Below, one piece after another: positions 22,510-39,954 of a stretch of 64,000 nucleotides of DNA. Numbering within the stretch: the first letter of the stretch is position 1; each line of letters starts with the position of its first letter. Both the position numbers and the translations under genes were made by a program. Source of the DNA: Lactobacillus sp. (GTDB lineage Bacteria > Bacillota > Bacilli > Lactobacillales > Lactobacillaceae); the NCBI GenBank assembly GCA_022483245.1, contig JAKVNR010000001.1, forward strand, positions 372,001 through 436,000, read 5' to 3'. The notes beneath the pieces were generated by a model that saw only the letters and a program-made list of their open reading frames with translations, was not told where the DNA came from and made no database searches.

Positions 22510-25500
22510 ATGCTGTTTGACAAACAAAATCGGTATTCAATTAGAAAGTTAACGATTGGCGCTGCCAGCGTCTTAATTGGTGTGTTTTGGTTAAGCACGA
22601 CAAGTAATACTGCGCAAGCGGCGAAAAGTAATGGCAATGATGCTGCAATGGAAGAAAAAACTACAACAAAAAATGCAGCAGATCTGATTAAAGATAGTCA
22701 GCGTACTCTGTTGGCAAAAGAAAAAGCTCAGAATAGTACGACAAGCTCTACAGATAGCGCAAAAAGTATTGCTGGTTCAGTAAATGAAAAGCGGTCTGAA
22801 ACTGATATTAGCGATAGTAAAAATACCACAGAGCGAACTAGTAATTCGCTTAAAAATAATAATGTAGTGGTTGATGGAAATCATGCATTTAAAAATGCAC
22901 CCGTGAATTCTCAAGAACATAAACTAGGTACTCCAACGGTTCAAGCACAAGACTTAAAAAAGAGAACCACTTCTGTAATGACTTCAGAAGATGGAACTGA
23001 ACAAACACGTACTGTAACTGTCCACTATAAGATAGCTGATGGTACAACTGAGGGGTCCAAAGCTGCTGATGATGCAGTTTTAGATATTTACTATAAAAGA
23101 ACAAAAACCACTAATTCCGATGGTCAAGATACCTACGGTAATTGGACTTGGGATCAAAGCAGAGGTGATGAGAAGCATAAGGGTTATCATGTTGTTTCAG
23201 GAAATTGGACTTATTTACCCAAGAATTCAGAAGACTTTAATGCTGTAACTGCCGAAGCACCTGAAAAAGAAGGTTATACCCTTGATACTTCAGGTGATGG
23301 AACTAGTTCTGTACCTGCTAACAAATTCGTAGCGCCTACTTATACTGGTAATGATACAAGTAAAGCAGGTGAAAGCTCTGTTGCATATACTAAAAGCGCA
23401 GAAAAGTATGAAGCAAAGCCAGAACACACAGTTTGGTATATTCCAGTAAAGCATGAAACCAGAACTGTTACTGAGTACTACAAGTACGAAGATGGTACTA
23501 CTGCACATGATCCAGACCAAATTCAAGTATTTTATAAAGGTACAGGCGTACGTGATAAAACAACCAATAAGGTTACTTACACTTGGACTTGGGATTCTTC
23601 TGCTGGTGATGAAGATACCCCAGGCTTTCACGTCATCTCTGGTAATTGGAGCGTAGGGTCTAAAGGAAAACCGATAACTGGTCCATGGAGTGTAACCACC
23701 CCTACTATAAGTGGGTATACTCCAATAACAACGACTGGTATTCAGTACACCTCAAATAACTTTGGTCATCCAACAAGTGGTGACCAATTTACTAGAACTG
23801 ATGCAAAAGACTGGTTTTATAGAAGTTCGAATACTACATACTATGTTCCTTCTGAAAATACAGGGACTAAATATGTTTATAGGTATATAAACATTATTAA
23901 GCCGGGTGGTAGTAAAACAACAAATAATCAATATACTACTTGTACTTCAAATGCCTATTTGAACTCGGATGACAGTGGTGTAGTGTATCGTGGTACTAAT
24001 GGTACGATGTCAGCAGTTGATGTTAGCATCTCAGGTTATACACCAATAATTACGCAAACAAATAGATGGTAAGACGACTACGATTAATTCTATTGATGCG
24101 ATAACTGTGGATGGAAAGAGCTCCAATATTACTATTAATGTCACTTATATTGATAGTAACAGCAGAGTAGGTAAGATTTCTTACGTTGACAGTACAACAG
24201 GCACAGAAGTCGGTAATGCACCAATTTCAGGAAAAATTGGCAGCACAATCTCAATCACTGACACCATTAATAAAAATGTTCCAAAGGATTATGAAATAGC
24301 ATCAGGCCAAAATATTCCGAAAACGGTAACTGTTACTGATAGTGGTATAGAAACTGTTGTGGTTAAAGTTGAAAAGACTGCAACAGGAAAAATATCATAC
24401 GTTGATAGCACTACAAATAAAGAAGTTGGTAGTGCAACGATAACAGGAAAAGTTGGACACACGATTTCAATCATTGATACTGTTAATAACAATATCCCTA
24501 AAGATTATGAACTCGTACCAGGTCAAACAATTCCAACAGTAGACGTGACTGAAAATGGTATCTCAACAGTTAATATTAAAGTTCAGAAAAAGACCGTAAC
24601 TGGTAAGATTTCATATATTGATGTTGATGCCAATGATAAAGAAGTTCAGACGACTGACTTATCTGCAAAAGCTGGTGAAACAGTAAGGATAAGTACTAGT
24701 ATTCCAGAAAATTATGAACTTGTATCCGATCAAAATATTCCTACCGAAGTAACTGCAACTAGCTCTGGCATTCCAACGGTAACTGTTAAAATTAAGCATA
24801 AGACCCAAGATGTTTCTGATACAGACCCAGGCGCTCATCAAGCACGTACTATCACTGAATATTACAAATATGCAGATGCTGGGAGTTTAACTGGACAAGA
24901 GGTGTTTTCTGAAGATCAGCTTCAAGTTTTCTACAAAGGTACAGCAATTAAAGATCTAGTTACTGGAAAAGTTACTTATAGTAATTGGAAATGGGATACT
25001 TCTCAAGGTGATGAAGATACCCCTGGTTTTCATGTTGTTAAAGGTACATGGACTGGATTAGGCGAAAAGGGTAAGCCAAGTACAAAAAGCATAGTCATAA
25101 ATCCGCCTGATAAAGAGGAATATACTGCCATTACTGGTACACGTGTAAATTACAATACAAACGTCTTTGTTAATCCAAACACTGATTTTACTACCGATAC
25201 AGCTTCAAAGTGGTATTACCGCAATTCTCTCACCACCTATTATGTTCCGAAAACCTTGGTCGATAAGATGATCTCTCGGACAATTTACGTAACTGAACCA
25301 GGTAAGGAACAAGCATCTGTTACTAATAATGTGAACGTAACTAGATATGCTGCAATCAATAGTACTGACACTGGGGTTATCTATGAGGGATTTGAAGGTA
25401 GTGGTTGGCAAATAACTGGTACTAATTCTTGGCCTGCCTATACTGTACCTTCACATCCTGGCTACACAGTCAAGATTACTAAGTCAATTGATGGTGGAGC

Positions 25501-28500
25501 AGAAGAAGCTGGCAGTGAGGCTGATTTAGCTCAAAAAACTGTCACAGTTGATGGTAAATCTGAAGTCATCAACATTACCTACAGTGCTACTTCAACCATT
25601 TCTTTAGATGGCTCCGGAAGTAGTGAATATACAGGTCAACCTATTACGATTGATGATGTCAATAAGGGCATCACAGTTAATGTAATAGGTCCTGATAGTA
25701 CAACTTCAGGTAAATACACCTTAGTCGATGGCGATGTTGAGTTCTTAAAGGATGGCTCAACTGGTAGCTATTCAACTACTTTGCCAACTGATGCTGGTAA
25801 ATACTCGATGAAATTAACCGAAGCAGGTATGAACCACATTAAGACTAAGTTTGGTAACAATGCAATCACTTTCCAATACGCAGATAATAAAGATGTTGCA
25901 TATTACACGATTGCCCAAGTCAAAGCCGAGGTTAGTCTCACAGGTAGTAAAACAATTACATATGGTGATGCAGTCAAAATTGATGCTTCAAACTATCAAT
26001 TGAAAGCTACTGATTCACAAGGTAACTCTATTGATACTACTGGCATTAAATTGACTGATGGTGATCTAGAGTTTGTAACCACGCCAACTGATGCTGGTAC
26101 TTATCAAGTTAAGCTGACTACGCAGGGGATTGATAAACTCAAGGCCTTGAAAGGTGCTGCTAACTATAACTGGGATAGTGCAAGTGATGCTAGAGCTAAC
26201 TACATTGTTGAGAAGAAAAGCCTCGTTTACTCTATTTTAGGGATTGTAAATAGCCAATACACTGGCAGTCCGATTACAATTGCTGATTTAACTAGCCATG
26301 GTTCGATAATTCATGTGCAAGTACAAAGCAACGATTACGCTTTGGTTGATGGCGATGTCCAATTTGCTAAGCATGGCACACATGATTATTCAACAATTTA
26401 TCCTACTGAAATCGGTAGATATGATGTGCAGTTAACTGAAGCTGGTGTGCGTCATCTCCAAGAAAAATATGGTGACCGCAACACAAAGTTAACGCCTGTC
26501 AAGCAAGAACAAGTTGCTACATACATTATTGAGCAAGGTACAGCTAAAGTTAGCCTATCTGGTGATCAAACAGTTGCGTACAATGAAGATAAAACAATTG
26601 ATCCTTCAAAGTACACGCTTTCTATTAAGAATTCGAATGGCGACACCATTTTTGCTAATGAAACTTTGGCAGCAGGTGATCTGGAATTTGTTAACACACC
26701 AACTGAACCAGGCAATTATCAGGTTAAGTTGAGTCAACAAGGTATCGCTAAACTTAAAGCATTATCTGATAGTTATAACTGGGACAGTGCAAGTGAAGCT
26801 AGGGCAAATTATCAAGCTACTGGAGCCACTTCAAAAATTAATTTGATCAATAATGTAAGTGTTCCTTATACCGGTAATCCGGTTACTTTTGATGAAATTG
26901 GCTCTAGAGTTAAGGTGAATATTGCTGGCCCAGATAATGCAACTTCTGGTACTTATAACTTAGTAGCTGGCGATATTCAGATCGCTAAAGCTGGCACTTC
27001 AGATTTCTCAACAACCTATCCAACGGAAGCTGGTCAATACGTTGTAAAGCTGACAGAAGCTGGCTTAAAGCACATTAAAAACCATTTCGGCAACAACTAT
27101 ATTACCTACCAGTATAACGAGAACATTCCACACAGTGACTGGACAACATTAACCATTGAACAGGCCAAAGCTAATGTTAGCTTAACTGGTGGTCAAAGTA
27201 GTTACTATAGTCAAGAAGCTAAGATTGATGCAGGTAAATACCAAGTATCGATTAAGGACGATCAAGGCAATGCACTTTTTGCTGGCAAAATTACCTTAGC
27301 AGATGGTGATTTAGAGTTTGATACGACTCCAACGAATGTTGGCACTTATCAAGTTAAGCTAACATCGCAAGGACTCAATAAGGTTAAGGCATTATCTACT
27401 AATTATTCTTGGGATAGCGCAGCAAAAGCTACTGCTACTTATACAGTTGAAGCCATGCCAGTGAACGTCACTGTAGAAGGTGGCAATAAATCTGTTAAAT
27501 ATGGTTCGCAAGATTGGGTCGATAACTTTATTGATGATCCAAAGACTCCAGAAGACATAGGTTACACTCTGTCACTTAAGACAAAAGATGGCAAGGATCT
27601 GGACACTTCTTCTGTAAGTGGAAATCTAACCTGGCAAAATGATACTACTCCAACAAATGCTGGCGAATATCATCTAAGTGTTGATACATCGGCTATCCAG
27701 CAGAAGCTTGGTTCTAACTATCAAGTAATTGATAAAGTTGATAATTCACTAACCTTCACCATCGAAAAAGGCAATGCTACAATCACATTAGTTAACAAAT
27801 ATGACGATGGCAAAACTTATGACGGTCAAGACGGAACAATTGATGCCACTAATTACACTTATACGGTAATCACTGATGGTGCTGATCCTGATCGTATTTA
27901 TAGTATTAATGATTTCAGTACTGTAGATAATATTGAATTAACTGATGATTATTTACAATTAGTGCCGATCAACGGAAACATTAAAGATGCTGGTACTTAT
28001 GAGGTTAAACTGACGTCAGCTGGTGAACAGGCGATTAAAAACACTGATGCTTCAGATGATCTTACTACTGGTACCACGCTTTACGGTTCGAACTACAACT
28101 GGACTTTTGCACCATCAGAAGCTACCTACAAGATTGCCAAGACTACAGCTATGGCTACGGTAAATGGTCAAGTTTCGAAAACTTATGATGGTACAGCAAT
28201 TAGCAATTACACTCCTAGCGTAGATATCAATGTCTCTGGAGTAGGCGATACTACCAATAACATTGAATTAACTGCTGGTACTGATTATGTCTGGAAGTTG
28301 GGCAATCAAACCTTTACTACGGCACCAGTTAATACTGGCGATTACACCATTGAATTAACTGATAGCGGTAAGAATAAGATTATGGCCTTTGATGCAAACA
28401 ATGTTGATTGGGATGACGCAGGCAGCTCAATTACAAGTGCTGCAACTTACACCATTACCCAAGCTGCAGCTAGTGCAACTTTAAGTGGTCAAGGCACACG

Positions 28501-31500
28501 TGCATATAATGGTCAAGGCGTAACTTTAGCAGATTTGAATGCTAAAGACGCTAATAACAACATTACTTTAACGATTAAGTACCCAGCTAATGGGGATGCC
28601 AATCACTCAGAAACTATCGCTTTGACTGCGGATGATTTTGTTTGGAACACTACCGATGGTAAGGCTCCAGTTGACGCTAATAGTCAAGCCTATACAATTT
28701 CACTAAATACTGCTGCAATTAAGAAATTAATTGAAGATAAAGCTGGCTATAGTACAGATGCTAGTGGCAAAAAGATAAGCAACGTTACTGTTAATGACAC
28801 TGCAGTTTCTGGTACAGCAGAATACACGATTACTCCTTTAGAGACCGCTGCAATTGTTGCTGGCTATGGTGACTATGGCAAGGAATATGATGCTACAACA
28901 ACTGATTCAATTGATCCAAGTAAGCTGAAGTTTACCGCTAAAGTGGGTGACCAGACCGTTGATTTAGACACAACTGGCTTGACTGGTGATGATTTTGAAT
29001 GGGTTGATCAAAATGGTGCTGCTTTAACAGAAAAGCCTAAGAATGTTGGTACTTATTACATTAAGTTAACTAATGATGGCTTAACTAAGCTGAATAATCA
29101 GAATACTAACTTTAAGCTTACTAGTCAGAGTGGTACAGGTACGTACATAATCACCCAAGGCACTGCTAGTGCTAAGCTTGATGGAACTGGATCGAAATTC
29201 TACAATGGCAGCAAGATTTCTGCTAGTGATCTGGATAATGGCTCTATCAAAGTAGCCTTGACCTTCCCAGGATCAAATAGCGCAAGCTACACATTGCAAG
29301 ATGGTGATTACGTCTTAGACAAGACCAATGATGGTTCAGTCGGCAAGTACACGATTACCTTGACTGATGCAGGTAAGAAGCATATTCAAGATAAGATTGC
29401 TGAGCTTAGCGGTCACAGTTTAGATGGTACAACTAGCAATGTCACTACTGCCTTAGATACAATCACTGGTAGTGCAAGCTACGAAATTAAGGCTGCTGAG
29501 AACACTGTCAGCGTAAGTGGCACGCAGACTGAAACTTACACCGGTCAAACAATTACACCTAAATATGATTCAACAGGTAGCAATGGTGTTAAGGTAACGA
29601 TTATTGCCAATAATGGTAAAGCTGTTGATATCACCAATGCAGGTTTGACAGGTTCTGACTTCAAGACAGTCGATGCAAGTGGCAACGATGTTAATGCCGT
29701 CAATGCTAACGGTACTTACCACATTGTCTTAACCGACGAGGGTCTTGCAAGATTACAACGGGCGGTTGGCAATAATTACCAACTCAGCAAGGGTACTTCC
29801 TTTGGTACTTTGATAATTAACAAAGCCACTGGTACAGCAAGCTTTGAAGGTTCAGCATCATACGTTTACACAGGAAATCCTGTTGATGCTAGTGATTACT
29901 TGAGTCAATACACCCTTAAATTGAATGAGCCAAATAATCCAACTTATCAGTTGGTAAATGGTGATGTTGAATTTAAGCAAGCTTATGGTACTTGGTCAAC
30001 CAATGTGCCAACTAAGGTTGGGAAGTACGATGTCCGCCTTTCTCAACAAGGCTGGGACAACGTCAAGAAGATTAACAGCGATAACGTTCAATGGTCAGCA
30101 ACTGCTTCAACAACAGGCAAAGCAACATTTGAGATTACTCAAGCAAGTGCTACTGCCACTTTAAGTGGCTCTGGCTCAATGATCTATACTGGTCAAGCTG
30201 CTGCAACTGATCTTTCCAAAGATGGTTCAACGATTGCCGTTACTATCAAGAGCGATGGTGCCAATATTGCTAACTTGCCAGAGACTTATGAATTAACAGG
30301 TGGTGACTACACCTGGAATACAGGCAGTGCACCAACGAATGTTGGAAATTACACAATAGCTTTGACCAATGCTGGCATTCAGAAGATCCAGGCTGCAATT
30401 GATCAAGCAGTTGGTGCAGGCAATGTCGTTTTGAAGGGTACTGGCAGTGCAAGCTTTGAAATTAAGCAAGCTGTTAAGACCAACGTTCAACTTCATGGTG
30501 ATGTTGAGAACACTTATAACGGCAATAGCGTAAGCTTTGATCCAACTGCTAATGATCAGAAGGACAAGTTTGGCTTCAACAACATCGAAGGCTTAACCAT
30601 GCCAACCTTCGCAAGTTCTGACTTTGATTGGTACTCTGATGCAGATGGCAAGAATAAGCTCACTGGCGCACCAAAAGATGCAGGTACTTATTACTTGTTG
30701 TTAAATGATGCTGGTAAGAAGAAGATTGTTGACGCCAATAAGAACTACTCATTTACTGATAAAGAAAACAAGAGCACAATTACTGGTGCAATTAGCTACA
30801 AGATTAATCAAGCTGACTTAGCAATCAAGATTTCAGGTCAAAGCCATAAGGATTATGATGGTAAAAATGCAGTAGTGAGTGCAGCAGATCTGACAGGTGG
30901 CGACATCAAAGTTTCTTGGAATGACTCATCTAAAATGCCAACCGATCTTGGCAGCTACACTTTGACTGCTGATGATCTGGAGATTGTTGATGCTAGTGGT
31001 AATGCAGTTAAGAAAGCCAATGCCATTGGCAATGTGACTACTGGTAATCCAGTTTACACAGTTCGCTTAAAGCAAAGTTCTTTAGCAGCAATCGAAGCTT
31101 TATCTGGTGCTAAGAACTACAAGATCAGCACTTCTACTAGTGCTACTTACTTGATCTACAAGCAAAAAGCACAGTTAACTTTGACTGGTAACCAGAAAAC
31201 CACTTATGGCAATCCATTAGCCTTTGATCCATCTAAATATACTCTTGACTTTAGTAATTGGGTTGATCCTGACAATACAAAGCCAACTAAGAGTGAAATC
31301 AATCTTCACGATGGTGATTTGTATATTGTCTACGGCAGCAATGATGGTCCTACCAATGAGTTGCCAACTGATGTCGGGACATATCAAGTTGCAGTTTCAG
31401 ATCAGTTATTGGCTCGGTTAAAAGCTGCCTATCCAAACTATGATTTTGATGGTATTACAGTCAAAAGTAGCAGTGATAGTAAAGGCGACAGCACAGACGA

Positions 31501-34500
31501 TACACATGAACCAGCAACTTATGTCATTGATCCAGCGACTACTAACGTCAAGATTAACGGTACGAAGAAAGTTAAGTATGGTAGTTCAAAAGTAGAAGGT
31601 AACTACAGCTTGACGATTACTGCTACAGTTAACGGCGTTAAGGACACTAAGATTTTTGATGGTCAAGTAACATTGACTAACGAAGATCTCGAGTTTGCTG
31701 ATGGAACTCCAGGTAATGTAGGCGATTATCACGTCAAGTTGTCGTCAACGGGGCTTGCTAAGCTAGCTAACCTTTCGAAGTCTTCCACAACTGGTGAAAG
31801 CAACTATGATTGGAGCCAAGCCAAAGAAGCTAAAGGCCTCTTCATGGTTGAACAAATGCCAGTCACCATCACAGTTAATGATGCTAATAAGTTGGTTGTC
31901 TATGGCTCTCAAGACTGGCTTGATGATATTAAGAAGAAGCCTTCCGAATTAGGCTATGGATTAACAATCACAACTAAAGAAGGCAACAAGCCACTTACAT
32001 ATACTCTTCAAGCTGGTGATCTTGAATTCGCTCAAACACCAGGCAATGTTGGTGATTATCAAGTTCAATTATCAGCTGATGGTTTGAGTCACATTAAATC
32101 GGCCCTGGGCACCAACTATGACTGCCCGCAGAGTGCAGAGGCCGTCACCAGCAAGGGTAAATTCAATGTCAGTCAAGGTAGTGTTGAAGTTAAGTTAACT
32201 GGTAACGATGGCAGACCTTATGATGCTAAGTCAACGACGACAAGCAACTTAGATCTGACTCAATACAGTTATAGTGCAACGATTTACGATGCTTCGGGCA
32301 ATCCTCAAAGTGTCGACTTGACTGCCGATGATCTAGAAATCGTACCAATTAATAGCAGCACTGAAAATGTTGGCGAATACACAGTTCAGTTGTCATCACA
32401 TGGGCAAAATCGTTTGAAGGCTCTTGATGGCAATAATGGTGCTAACTACAAGTGGAACTTTACGACTAATGCCAAATACACTATTATTGCAGCCGATGCT
32501 CCTACTGTAAAATTAAGTGGACAAAATTCTAAAACTTATGATGGTCACGCAGTAACGATTGATGAAGTTAACAGTTCTACAGGTGACATCAAGGTTAAGT
32601 TTACTTATCCAGGTAGCAATGAAAACAGTACTTATACTTTAACTACTGATGATCTTGACTGGTATGACGAAAATAACCAAAAATTAGCCTCAGCACCAAC
32701 TGATGCTGGCAAATACACAATTAAGGTTAAAGATTCTAGTCTAGCTAAGATTAAGAATCGCTTGACTGAGTTAGCTGGAACAAATGTTAACGCTGATAAG
32801 TTAACAAGTGTGTCTGGTTCTGCAAGCTTTTCGATTACGCCAAAGACAATCAATAATGTAACTGTTTCTGGCAATGATCAAAGTAAGACTTACGACAGTC
32901 AAGCTGCTAACCTCGATGTTAGTGGTTTAACAGTTCAAGCAGGAACAACATCTCTTAACAAGGAAACTTTGGACGCTAGTGACTTTGACTGGTATGATGC
33001 TAATAATAAGAAGTTGGACACTGTGCCAACTGACGCTGGCAATTACCAAGCAAGATTAAAGTCCGAAGCTCTGCAAAAATTGCAAGCCGCTAACAAGAAT
33101 TACAGCTTTAGTAGCGCTACAGGAACGATTAATTATCAAATTAAGCAAGCTCCTGTCACAGCAGTGATTGGTGGAAATGATAGTCGTGCTTACAACGGTC
33201 AATCAACTTCTGCAAGCGATGTTTTAGGTAAGGTAACTTGGACACCAACTGGTCTTGTTTCTGAACAAAACCTTGATACGTCAGCGATTACTGCTGATGA
33301 TTATGAATGGTTTGCTAAGAACGCGGATGGCACTGAAACTGTCATGACTGGTAACCCAACTAATGCAGGAAGCTATGTCTTGAAGTTCAAGTCATCAGGT
33401 ATCGACAAACTGCGTAATGCCAACAAGAATTACAGTTTTGCAGACAACGCGGTCAGCGGTGAATTCACTTACACTATCAATAAGGCTACTGAGAATATCA
33501 GCGCAGACCTTAGCGGTAGCAACCATCGTGAATACAACGGCAGTGCAGTAACTAATGATGATGTAATCAGCACTAGTGGCGATATCACTGTTAAATTGAC
33601 TTACCCAGGCAGCACTGATCAAAGCACTTATACTTTGCAAGATGGCGATTACAAGTGGTTTGATGAGGCTGGTAACGCTTTAAGTGGTGCTCCAACCAAT
33701 GTTGGCAAGTACAAGATCAAGCTGACTAGCGCTGGCTTGACTCGCTTGCAAGATAGACTCAACAGTCTCGCTGGTGGTGAAAATGTCACAATTAGTGAGA
33801 GCGGTCTAAAGGGTGATGCTAACTTTGAAATTACCAAGAAGGCTTTGACCGTTAGTCTTGGTGATAAAGATAGTACTAAACCAGCTGGTAAGACTTATGA
33901 CGGCAACGCAGGTGTAATTAATCCAAATGATGGCAAGTTTACGTCAGAAGGTTTAGCTTCTGGAGATTCTTTGAATATCAGTGGCTTGACTAAAGGCGAC
34001 TTTGACTGGGTTGATGAAAATGGTAATAAACTGAGTGAAGTACCAACTAATGCTGGAACTTACTATATTGCTTTGAATAGTGATGGATTGACTAAACTCC
34101 AAAATAAGAATCCAAACTATCAAGTAAATGAAAATGGTAAGTTCAAGTACGTTATCAGTCCGGCTGAAGCGACCATTACGGTTAGTGGCAATCAAGAAAG
34201 TACTACTGCTGAAATTAATAATGATCAGTTTACAACAACCGGTTCAACAGGAATTACGATTCCTACTGGTTTGACTTATGAATTCACTAACGGTAAGCCA
34301 TCTGAATCTGGTACTTACGATGTGCAGTTGACCAAGGATAGTCAAGATGCAATCAAGAACGCCAATAAGAACTACAGCTTGACTTTTACTTCGACAGCTA
34401 AGTTCCAATTGGATCAAACCTTGAAGATCGTATTCAAGGATAAAGATGATAAGAATAAACAAGTCGGCGAAACAATTACGAAGAATGGTGTTGCCGGATC

Positions 34501-35695
34501 TAAGATTGAAAACCTTAATCTAACGATTCCTGAAAAATATGAGTTAGCTCAAAATCAAACTTTGCCAAAAGACTATACATTCACTAAGCCTTTAACTAAC
34601 ACAATTACTATTTATTTGGCTCACAAGAAGACAAATGTCGATCCAAATGATTCATCAACCAACCCTGATTCAACAAATCCAAACTGGTTCAAGGATAACG
34701 GTTTGGTTAAAGAAATCACTCGGACGATCAACTACCAAGGTTTAAGTGAATCTCAATTAGCTGAAATTCCGGCTGATCAAAAGAAGCAGACCGTCGAATT
34801 TACTCGGACTGCCAAATATGATGAGGTAACTGGAAAGATTGTAGCTGGAAGCGAAGGCGAGTGGGTTGTCCGTGGTAATAACAATTTCACTGGTTTTACT
34901 CCTAAGAATTTTGCGGGTTACACAACAAATACAGATAAAGTTGAAGAAGCTACCCCAAAAGCAGATGATAAAGATTCAACTATCACAATTTCCTACACCA
35001 AGAACGCTGAGCCAGTGACGCCAGATGTTCCAGGTACACCGGACGAGCCAACTACACCAGGCAAGCCAGATGACGATCAAGAAATTCTTGAAGATCTGAT
35101 TTTCGTTGACGGGACTGGTAATGTTATCGCCCGCTTGCCGAAATTGATCTTTGGCAAGAAGGGGACTGAATGGTCAGTTGAGCAAGTCTCAGCTTTGATC
35201 AAGAAATACCTGCCAAAAGGATGGGTTCTGCCAACCAACTTCTCGGCCAAGAAGATTCAGATCAACGGTTTGTCGGCCTTTGTAACTTTGATGCTGCCAG
35301 GCGAGAATTGGACTTGGGAAGTTGTTCCTAATACTCCACGCTCGAAATTGGGCACGGTTATTTACTTCATGGATGCACAGAATAATGTGATCACTAACGT
35401 TACCGCGTACTGGTCTAAGCGGGGCGCCACTGCCAAGCAAGTCAAAGACTTCGCTCAGGCGCACATGCCAGCAGGCTATGACTTTGCACCAGATTGGCAA
35501 GCCAAGGCAACGACTGACCGGCCAACGGCTCAAATTGTTAAAATTCAAAAGAAAGCTGCTAAGAAAATAGCACACCATACTTCGAAAGATACAGCTTTTA
35601 AAAAGTCTGATGCCGCACCACTTGGCCTGATTTTAACCGGGCTAGGGATGCTAGGCTTAGGCGGAGCTCATCGCCGCAAGCATGATCGTGATTAG
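22510..35695 (+). pseudogene. Giant YSIRK-signal MBG-repeat surface adhesin, split by a 1-nt frameshift near 24061 (ORFs 22510-24072 and 24107-35695)
   Basis: 'NRYSIRKLTIGAASVLIGVFW' signal; mucin-binding-like and ~27 MBG-like repeats; frame 2 is open upstream of 24107 and continues the same domain; C-terminal TM plus basic tail. Confidence 0.85.
25600..34415 (+). repeat. ~27 diverged MBG-like domain repeats (roughly 85-125 aa each)
   Basis: Recurring 'xxLSGxxxxxYxGxxxxx...L..GDxEfxxxPTxxGxYxVxLTxxGxxxI...' units counted by eye in the 3862-aa ORF. Confidence 0.85.
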
Positions 35696-35753: not shown

Positions 35754-35815
35754 GCGTATATGAAGTATAGAGGGGTGATTTTTACTTCTACTTTACTGAA
35801 ATGAGGTGCGCTAAG

Positions 35816-36694
35816 ATGCCGCACGATAATGGAAAATTTTATGGTTTTACTGAAGACCGCGTTTTTGGTTGGGTGATGGAGGACAAAGAATTTTGCAAAT
35901 TTATTTTGCAGACGATTTTACCGGATTTGAAAATTCAAAAAATTGAAGAGCTGCGTCTGCAGGAAGAATTGAATAGCGCTGGTTTGCTGACAAAAGACGT
36001 GCGGCTGGATGTATTAGTGACGGATGAGCAGGGCCGTGTGTATAATATTGAAATGCAAAACGCCAATGAGCATAATCTGGGCAAGCGGATGCGGTATTAT
36101 TTGTCGGCGATTGATCAGCACAATACTCTGCGCAAAGGCGCAACTTATAATGAACTTAAGGAAGCTTATGTGATTTTTCTTTGCGATTTTGATTATACCG
36201 GGCAGGGGCGGCTGCTGTCGTCCTTTCATACCTACGATGATCATGATCGAGCTTATATTTTGCCAACTGGCGCGCATTTTATTATCATTAGCGATAAAGG
36301 AAACCGGCACGGCCAGAGCCAGGATTTGCAGAATTTAGCCAAGCTGATGAATGGTGAAAAGATCACTGGCAATAAGCACTTTGATTATGCGCAAGAAAAA
36401 ATCGCTGCGATCAACCAAGACCCGCAAAGGAGGGCACAAATTATGCTGTATGAAACAAGACTGTTAGAACGCGAGCAATACGGTGAAGCGAAAGGACGAA
36501 AAGCCGGTATGAGAGCCGGTGAGGCTGAAGGACGCAAGGCAGGTAGACTCGAGGCAACATTAGCAGATATTCGCAAAAATATTGCGGGTTACCGCAGCTT
36601 TGGCATTTCGGATGAGAAAATTTTGGAGCGTCTGATTGCTGATTACGGCAGTGATGTTGATCCTAAGCAGATCAAGGCAATGATGGAAGAATAA
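35816..36694 (+). CDS. Rpn family recombination-promoting nuclease / PD-(D/E)XK nuclease-family transposase
   Basis: 'GFTEDRVFGWVMEDKEFCKFILQTILPD' and catalytic 'VRLDVLVTDEQGRVYNIEMQ'; ATG 35816 preceded by gaggtg. Confidence 0.88.
   Translation: MPHDNGKFYGFTEDRVFGWVMEDKEFCKFILQTILPDLKIQKIEELRLQEELNSAGLLTKDVRLDVLVTDEQGRVYNIEMQNANEHNLGKRMRYYLSAIDQHNTLRKGATYNELKEAYVIFLCDFDYTGQGRLLSSFHTYDDHDRAYILPTGAHFIIISDKGNRHGQSQDLQNLAKLMNGEKITGNKHFDYAQEKIAAINQDPQRRAQIMLYETRLLEREQYGEAKGRKAGMRAGEAEGRKAGRLEATLADIRKNIAGYRSFGISDEKILERLIADYGSDVDPKQIKAMMEE
36443..36694 (+). CDS. Predicted internally initiated, in-frame C-terminal small protein of the Rpn gene (RpnS-like), 83 aa
   Basis: Internal SD AAAGGAGGG at 36426-36434, 9-nt spacing from GGAGG to in-frame ATG 36443: MLYETRLLEREQYGEAKGRKAGMRAGEAEGRKAGRLEATLADIRKNIAGYRSFGISDEKILERLIADYGSDVDPKQIKAMMEE. 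Confidence 0.6.
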   Translation: MLYETRLLEREQYGEAKGRKAGMRAGEAEGRKAGRLEATLADIRKNIAGYRSFGISDEKILERLIADYGSDVDPKQIKAMMEE

Positions 36695-36742: not shown

Positions 36743-36982
36743 GCCTGCTAAAAATTAATTAATTGCGTTTACGCTTGCGGTCGAAGGTGAAACCTAGCAA
36801 GCTCAGACCAGCTAAGATGAGCCCTAAGATAGTAAATTCATGATTGCCAGTTTGCGGCAGGGATTTCTTTTGAGCAGTCTTAGTAACTGTAGCAACTTTC
36901 TTAGTTACATTGTTGGTAGTTGCCTGATGTTCTTTATCAGGAGTAGTGTCACCATCAGGTGTGTTCGTATCAGGTTTATCCT

Positions 36983-37091
36983 TGTCTGGTGTATCAGGTG
37001 TATCAGGTGTGTCCGGAGTATCCGGAATATCCGGTGTATTCGGCGTGTCTGGAGTATCGGGTGTATCAGGAGTATCTGGTGTGTCTGGTGT
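36983..37091 (-). repeat. 9-bp-period (TPD)n stalk repeat
   Basis: Encodes TPDTPDTPDTPDTPDTPNTPDIPDTPDTPDTPDTPD. Confidence 0.9.
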
Positions 37092-37764
37092 GGTAGTCAT
37101 CTTGTAAGGAACGTTAATTGTATAAGTTGTAGTTCTGCCATCGACTAAATCGTCGTCTGGAATGTTGAATTCATTAACACCAGTTTTATCACCTTTAAGA
37201 ATTGCATCTACATGTGAGTCACTAAGAGCTTTAACACCAACCTCATTAAGTTTTAAAATTGTGGTAGTACTTGAGTCAGTATAGTCACGCGTAGCTTCGA
37301 CGCCTTGTGCATCAAGGTTGTAGGTATTCTTACCTTCATTTTCGATACTTTTCACAGCTTTTGGAAAATCAATTTCGCTAAAACCGTTCTCACCATTTTC
37401 TGATTTCCAATTGCTCCAATTACTCCAGTTGCCAGGTATACCGTTTTCAATTGTACGAGTTCTAGTTCTGGTATAAGTAATCGCTCTGTTTACACTAGTT
37501 GCATATGCTTCTGGAACATTGCTATTTGCATGTGGTCCGTTTTCGTAATAGTAGGTGACATGCTCAATTACTTGAGAAGTTTGAGTTTCTGTTTCGGTTT
37601 GGGGTTGAGCGGTGTTTTTCTTAAAGACAACCGTAATGTTAATATCGTCACTATTATGGTTGATACCTGTTTGTTCAGCTACAGAGTATTCTTCGCCATT
37701 TTTGACCAGTACATCAGCCTTAGATTGGTCATTCGTTGCAGAATCAACATAGAAGCCAGTCTCT

Positions 37765-38086
37765 GGCGCGATCGTAACAGCATTGAATGTTTGATTATCG
37801 TCAGTCCATGTGTAGTCTGATTCTTGATCCGTATATTTCTTTGTACCGTTGAAGGTCAAACTCGTTGAACTGGGTGCACGGCTAGTGGTCGTAATTACAT
37901 TACCGTTTTCATCCTCAAAGACATAGGCGCGATCGTAACAGCATTGAATGTTTGATTATCGTCAGTCCATGTGTAGTCTGATTCTTGATCCGTATATTTC
38001 TTTGTACCGTTGAAGGTCAAACTCGTTGAACTGGGTGCACGGCTAGTGGTCGTAATTACATTACCGTTTTCATCCTCAAAGACATA
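37765..38086. repeat. exact 161-bp direct tandem duplication (37765-37925 and 37926-38086)
   Basis: Base-by-base comparison of the two copies shows identity from ggcgcgatcgtaacag... to ...cctcaaagacata. Confidence 0.97.
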
Positions 38087-39954
38087 TTTGATTGTTTCTG
38101 TAACAGTCTTTTTTATTTTAATAGTCTGGTCACCGCTTGCACTTGCACGTAAATTTTCTGTTTGTGATGTCCAAGTTTCGCCGTGACTCAAAGTTTTAAC
38201 TGTTGGCCCTGTTTTATCAATTGGAACGTCTGGACCTACTGGTTTAGTCCAGTCATCTGGTAATTCTTTCGGAAGCAGGGTAGTAATTTGGAAAAAGTAA
38301 GCGTGTTTAGCATACTCTGAGTTACCTTTAATTGCGAACTCACCCTCACCATTTTGACTGAAAGAAATACCAGTAATTTGTTCAAATTTTTGAGTGGCAA
38401 TGTCTCCTTTAGGGTCACTCCATTCTTGAGAAGTTGCACTGGTGCTTTCATCTGAGAAAGTTACTAGATTACTTTTTAGATAATCTTCGAAATCAGTGTC
38501 TTCTGGTTGACTAGTAATTATTTGATAAACGGTTTTGCCACTACTGGTTTCATCATTGATACCATAGCGATCGCCTTCGGGGTTGACTACCAGGTCATCA
38601 GGTACTTGCCAAACTCTAATGGAACTTGGCAAAAGATATTGGTTCTTTGAATAAATTTGTTTAAAGATTGCATCCTTTAGTGGTTTTATGTTTGGATTAT
38701 TTGGATTATTTGGATGTTTTCCTCCTTTGCCATAATTAAAGTAAACCCCGTAGTTGACTACTGTTTGATCATCTTGATCATTAGGTAGAGTGTAATCATT
38801 TTTTATTCTGCTGTTGTAAGATGCTTCTTCATTGAAAGTAGATTTACCTATTGGAAAACCATAAGCTATTTCATCTTCTTGAACTTTATTACTAAATGGT
38901 TCAACTTTAACACTTTGTGGATTGGCGCTAACTGATTGACCAACCTGTCCATCTTTACTGGGAGTTACAGTAACTGGTAAAGAAATTTCTTCAGTGGTCT
39001 TAATTTTTTCTTTCTTAGCAACAAGCGGTAATGTGAAATTGGTACCATTGAACGATATATCAGCATCAGTGCTGCCTTCTTTTTCTGCAATAGTAAATTC
39101 ACCATTACCGTTATTGGTTATTTGATAGTCAGTTTTGTCAATATCTTGACTTTCATTAATGTGGAAGGAGTCCATGTCCCAATCGATTTCATCTTTAGCT
39201 TTTTCATCACCGATTTGGACAGTTAACTTGGTGCCTTTTTCTAATGATGGGGAATTAATGTCAACTTTAAGCTTAATCTGGTCACGTCCGGCCATATATG
39301 TCTTAGTAGTTCCATCTTCATTTTTATCATTGTCAATCGAAGCAGAAACCGTGATTGAATTTTGCGGTTCACTTAATTGGCTTATTCTAGCCTTATCGTT
39401 AGATTTATCTTCAATTTTATTTTCAGCTAATGATTCTGTGTTTAGCGTCTGATCGGATTTTTTAACTTTTAGATTGGCAGTTTTATCATCCTTACCATCA
39501 TTTTGCGTAGATGGGGGGGTGTTAGTGGAATCTGTAGGCGTGGTTTTTTGTGTTGAAGTAGGTGTTTCAACTTTAGCACCATCGCTGGCGCTTACCACTG
39601 GCTTGGTAATTTTTGTTGTTTCGGTCAAATTAGCTTGTTCAATACCATTGTCAGTTGCCGCTTGTACATTTTGATTATTTGCAGTCATGATTACGGAGCC
39701 CAAGGCTACCGCTGCCAGGCCAACAGATAACTTCCGAAAACCGAACCTTTGCTTTATTTTAGATGTTGGATTAAATGTTGCTGATTTAGCTTTCATTATT
39801 ATTGCCCTCACAGGAATTAAATTCTTTTTTAATTACATAACTATCGTAATATCTACTTCTATTATAAGCCATTATTCCCTAAATAATAAAGCATGAAAAC
39901 AAAATTAGATAAAAATTAAGAACCACACTTGAATATATTGTATAGACAAAAATA

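Follow-up and report, generated by a model that had tools for sequence, protein, structure and literature searches.

Intragenic toxin–antitoxin systems of the RpnL/RpnS type were described in E. coli by Zhong et al. (2023; PMC10327210), in which a short C-terminal protein, RpnS, restrains the full-length toxic nuclease, RpnL, and in which S blocked L where the roles of the two were separated. As reported there, RpnA-S (structure 7TH0) forms a bundle of three helices, the first of them long, with 4-aa repeats 8–20 residues past the Met; the helix containing these units is an oligomerisation region, and the RpnA L:S complexes are stable. RpnS tails are reported to be highly variable, similarity to RpnA-S not being a defining property, and separate rpnS genes have been reported in E. 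coli (PMC10327210). The same study included a Gram-positive case and proposed a broad conservation of RpnL/RpnS, and RpnS expression was seen when the Rpn gene of C. difficile was cloned in E. coli (PMC10327210). A literature search for RpnL/RpnS in lactobacilli, covering only a minority of subscription papers, found no paper on the subject. The Lactobacillus rpn gene analysed here is a well-supported further example of this known system and not a new system.

The gene lies in a window of 64,000 nucleotides, the stretch of the Lactobacillus genome that was analysed (Table 1). Its product scores 112.4 bits against TIGR01784 (cut-off 52.1), which places it in the Rpn family (TIGR01784/COG5464), and 63.1 bits against PF12784 (cut-off 27.4). 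ATG 35816 was chosen as the start by SD energy and by comparison with the paralogue, the alternative ATG at 35801 being without an SD. Among 44 homologues, D65, Q81, R91 and Y95 are invariant and E79 is conserved in at least 90%, whereas past residue 159 the sole nearly invariant residue is M210, the internal start. The structure model of the rpn product resembles PD-(D/E)XK nucleases such as McrC, the resemblance being weak (best E 1.5e-3). On the PF12784 match, the invariant residues and the model, the product contains a PD-(D/E)XK nuclease domain with its catalytic residues, and the first-pass annotation was right to place an intact nuclease motif upstream of the internal start, as the PD-(D/E)XK core is kept. 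The genome contains one paralogue, which is 78% identical, and with only these two rpn genes it has no free-standing rpnS.

Table 1. Features of the rpn gene, with window positions
Feature	Position	Strand	Evidence
rpn gene, full-length Rpn nuclease (RpnL), 292 aa	35816..36694	+	TIGR01784, PF12784
SD of the full-length protein, GAGGTG, 7 nt ahead of ATG 35816	35803..35808	+	Sequence; pairing energy −12.7 kcal/mol
PD-(D/E)XK catalytic motif, D65 ... E79-x-Q81	36008..36058	+	Homologue invariance; nuclease core in model
Internal SD AAAGGAGG	36426..36433	+	Sequence; nucleotide-level conservation across 79 homologues
Predicted RpnS-like 83-aa C-terminal protein, internal ATG = Met210 of RpnL	36443..36694	+	Start column, M210, three-helix model
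Variable 4-aa units GEAK GRKA GMRA GEAE GRKA GRLE	36482..36553	+	Copy number varies among homologues; DNA repeat

The first-pass annotation had proposed an internal start on the basis of the codons CCG CAA AGG AGG GCA CAA ATT ATG, which are present inside rpn as claimed; the ATG at 36443 shares the reading frame of rpn, stands 9 nt past the end of GGAGG (36433) and leaves 83 codons. The 16S tail of the genome, present in four copies, ends ...GGATCACCTCCTTTCT, and AAAGGAGG is therefore its perfect 8-nt complement. The restriction of AGG for Arg to codons 205–206 of rpn (two of 21 Arg codons) was likewise confirmed. The internal SD had also been claimed to surpass that of the full-length protein, but this did not hold, as the two pair about equally well (−12.6 kcal/mol for the internal SD versus the −12.7 kcal/mol of GAGGTG), although it is the internal SD rather than the GAGGTG before 35816 that has the longer perfect 16S match. 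When the in-frame ATGs other than the first of their ORF were ranked by SD pairing in the window ORFs of at least 150 codons, ATG 36443 took the second place among 293, the first being the true start 35816. Permutation, in which synonymous codons were shuffled within each gene with the protein and the codon usage preserved, gave p = 0.0035 for the window gene and p = 0.0155 for the paralogue, which retains CGGAGGGCACAAATTATG, with the codons CCG AAA CGG AGG GCA CAA ATT ATG. In the genome as a whole, 41 AAAGGAGG-N5-10-ATG sites were found versus three for the reversed control pattern. The RNA folding at both starts is unremarkable. Within rpn and 5' of 36443, promoter-like matches at 36017, 36048 and 36260 exceed those of shuffled sequences, these being consensus matches only. 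Internal transcription starts exist in E. coli rpn genes.

Conservation was followed in 79 Lactobacillaceae Rpn homologues, which were gathered by whole-genome searches and then aligned, a related-locus search alone having returned only two relatives. The check put forward with the first-pass annotation, nucleotide-level conservation of the SD and the ATG in Lactobacillaceae homologues, was strongly passed. The start column holds ATG in 71 genes, GTG in two and TTG in one, the remaining five having an ATG one codon upstream; since GTG and TTG also occur in this column, it is the start codon that is kept and not the residue. A GGAG, GAGG or AGGA core precedes the start column in 74 of the 79 genes, the mean at other columns being 14% and the maximum 56%. 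The residues encoded at the two SD codons are RR in 30 homologues, WR in 26, TR in six and KR in five, with others in the rest, and on the nuclease-domain tree the residue at the first SD codon changes about 14 times and the presence of the SD three times. The survival of the SD through these residue changes agrees with the earlier reading that AGG-AGG is kept for the SD rather than for the amino acids. The Arg codons at the two SD columns (n = 101) are AGG in 77 cases, AGA in 19 and CGG in five, with no CGT, CGA or CGC, and elsewhere in the same genes AGG accounts for 126 of 1394 Arg codons; the enrichment has a Fisher p of 8e-52, uncorrected for the relatedness of the homologues, which overstates their independence because they are related. 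Taken alone, per-column synonymous identity does not stand out (rank 26 of 269 for Arg −4), and the informative test is the SD-energy permutation. Judged from the aligned sequences, the internal start site is under selection at the nucleotide level.

As predicted by modelling, the small product has RpnS anatomy. The AF2 model of the 83-aa protein (pLDDT 75.7, falling under 60 over residues 1–30) consists of a long helix (residues 3–52) and two short helices (57–68 and 74–82), and the full-length model (pLDDT 90.8) contains the same helical elements, with M210 inside a helix spanning residues 203–261; the three helices with a long first helix that characterize RpnS are thus found in the predicted models. 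Six 4-aa units (G-x-x-x) begin 13 residues past the internal Met, from residue 14, a position within the 8–20 residues reported for RpnS (PMC10327210), and the number of units differs among the homologues; a 29-nt DNA repeat at 36-nt spacing (3 × 12) lies in the region of these units. A Foldseek search with the model of the 83-aa protein returned nothing significant, and 7TH0 was not among the matches listed.

The locus can be set beside the E. coli RpnL/RpnS genes, with which it shares a PD-(D/E)XK nuclease, a putative internal in-frame start with an SD near the C-terminus (from sequence and conservation), a small helical C-terminal product with variable 4-aa units soon past the internal Met and, in some relatives, separate tail copies downstream. 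However, RpnA-S has about 50 aa whereas the Lactobacillus RpnS-like protein has 83, the tails share no detectable sequence similarity (hhalign probability against E. coli RpnA-S 1.2%), and the SD sequence and flanking codons differ from those of E. coli rpnA (AAG GAG AGT TTA ATG). The E. coli system is known by experiment, the Lactobacillus case from sequence. The gene also resembles that of C. difficile, compared here by its description, in being a Gram-positive Rpn gene with an internal start.

A separate tail was seen in one relative, L128, in which a 79-aa ORF with AAAAGGAGATACCAATG and an SD of its own lies 3' of rpn and begins at the position equivalent to the internal start. A hairpin and, after it, a T run are located between rpn and this tail gene (L128:1465–1520); the separate L128 tail may need read-through, because its SD starts directly after the hairpin and T run. 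Behind the rpn gene of L015 stands a duplicate of its tail, with the conserved ATG as its first in-frame start codon, ahead of the conserved part, and L062 looks alike. Some other tail-only ORFs (for example, L071, L086 and L087) may be the remains of broken rpn copies.

The RpnS-like reading of the first-pass annotation is thus supported by the family cut-off, the nuclease core, the 4-aa units, the separate C-terminal ORFs and the conserved SD and ATG, and we consider it very probable that this is an Rpn gene within a gene, in which a nuclease, RpnL, is held inactive by a nested RpnS. One mRNA would give both RpnL, the PD-(D/E)XK nuclease translated from ATG 35816, and RpnS, the 83-aa C-terminal helical domain translated from ATG 36443 by means of a separate SD; RpnS would pair with its counterpart helical region in RpnL, keeping the nuclease inactive, and phage infection or another stress would upset the RpnL/RpnS complex and release the nuclease. 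From E. coli and C. difficile we infer that RpnS would be produced and would inhibit the nuclease, and phage defence by the Lactobacillus gene may follow as a further step of the same analogy. Against the reading count the position of the gene outside a defence island, the negative PADLOC and Foldseek results and the missing similarity to E. coli RpnA-S, although RpnS tails are reported to vary greatly.

The small protein could instead be made to help build the nuclease complex, as a constructive subunit for its assembly or dimerisation, and not to inhibit it. A comparable constructive internal product is Cas11d, which is made inside cas10d. The comparative evidence speaks to initiation and not to inhibition, and both the oligomerisation role of the helix carrying the 4-aa units in RpnA-S and the stability of the RpnA L:S complexes would suit such a subunit; against it, S blocked L in the cases in which Zhong et al. 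(2023; PMC10327210) told the two roles apart, and we regard this explanation as unlikely. Much less likely still is that the SD-like sequence makes ribosomes pause where the nuclease domain meets the C-terminal helix and is no start site: it does stand directly past the nuclease domain, but a pause requires no start codon at a fixed spacing, and all 79 genes retain one, including the GTG, TTG and shifted ATG cases, with the separate tail ORFs beginning at the equivalent start. The chance spelling of an SD and an ATG by Arg-Arg followed by Met, for which the frequency of RR at the SD columns might speak, is rejected by the homologue alignment and has hardly any probability left, as Trp, Thr, Lys, Met and Gly replacements over the SD still retain it, as 53 sequences of less than 75% identity have a mean pairing at the site of −12.2 versus −6.4 ± 0.35 when permuted (z = −16.7), and as the same kind of test on the upstream control region, from codon 60 to site −8, gives no SD excess (z = +1.8).

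In the alignment of these 53 sequences the internal SD site is the strongest pairing column of the entire ORF. A secondary SD-like pairing peak was observed at reference residues 37–38 of the stop-to-stop ORF alignment (window 35880–35930; z of about −7.5), with no evident in-frame start after it. For E. coli rpnA the SD-energy scan did not place the known start above permutation (p 0.21), and the test can therefore miss weak starts.

Returning to the nested RpnS reading, permutation was extended to 23 Rpn genes of other families in the phylum, whose best C-terminal internal start lies beyond it (z −8.7), the upstream part of the same genes giving no excess (z +1.1). In this sample of other Bacillota, read by eye, the best internal start often precedes the LSxDExxR..YExR block, apparently about 20–25 aa upstream of the Lactobacillaceae site, a distance likewise judged by eye and not from a tested alignment. 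Tentatively, the internal start of the Lactobacillaceae may differ in place from that of other Bacillota, being within the long C-terminal helix and not before it, so that the start could have changed place or arisen repeatedly with the nested logic kept.

The rpn gene sits between surface-adhesin genes and not in a defence island. As far as its closest neighbours were checked, they comprise genes for LPXTG/MucBP surface proteins and for an amino-acid permease, and uvrC; the nearness to other defence genes that is a tendency, and not a requirement, of RpnL/RpnS was not seen among them. PADLOC gave no model match for rpn, and a search for similar phage DNA found none. On the reverse strand (36759–39811), a surface protein that carries a YSIRK signal and, at the opposite end, an LPXTG anchor is broken into two ORFs at about 37860–37900, and a MTFNGTKKYTDQESDYTWTDDNQTFNAVTIAP-encoding stretch lies on both sides of this break, as if by tandem duplication and a frame change. 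On the forward strand, a very large MucBP/MBG adhesin (22510–35695) is apparently split into two ORFs (22510–24072 and 24107–35695), with a stop or a change of frame near 24072 as the cause.

In conclusion, the persistence of the SD while the residues encoded by its codons change is evidence at the sequence level, and independent of expression data, for selection on the nested RpnS start across the Lactobacillaceae. The broad conservation that has been suggested for the RpnS start becomes measurable in any genome, and the Gram-positive genes in which a nested RpnS can be tested are named.
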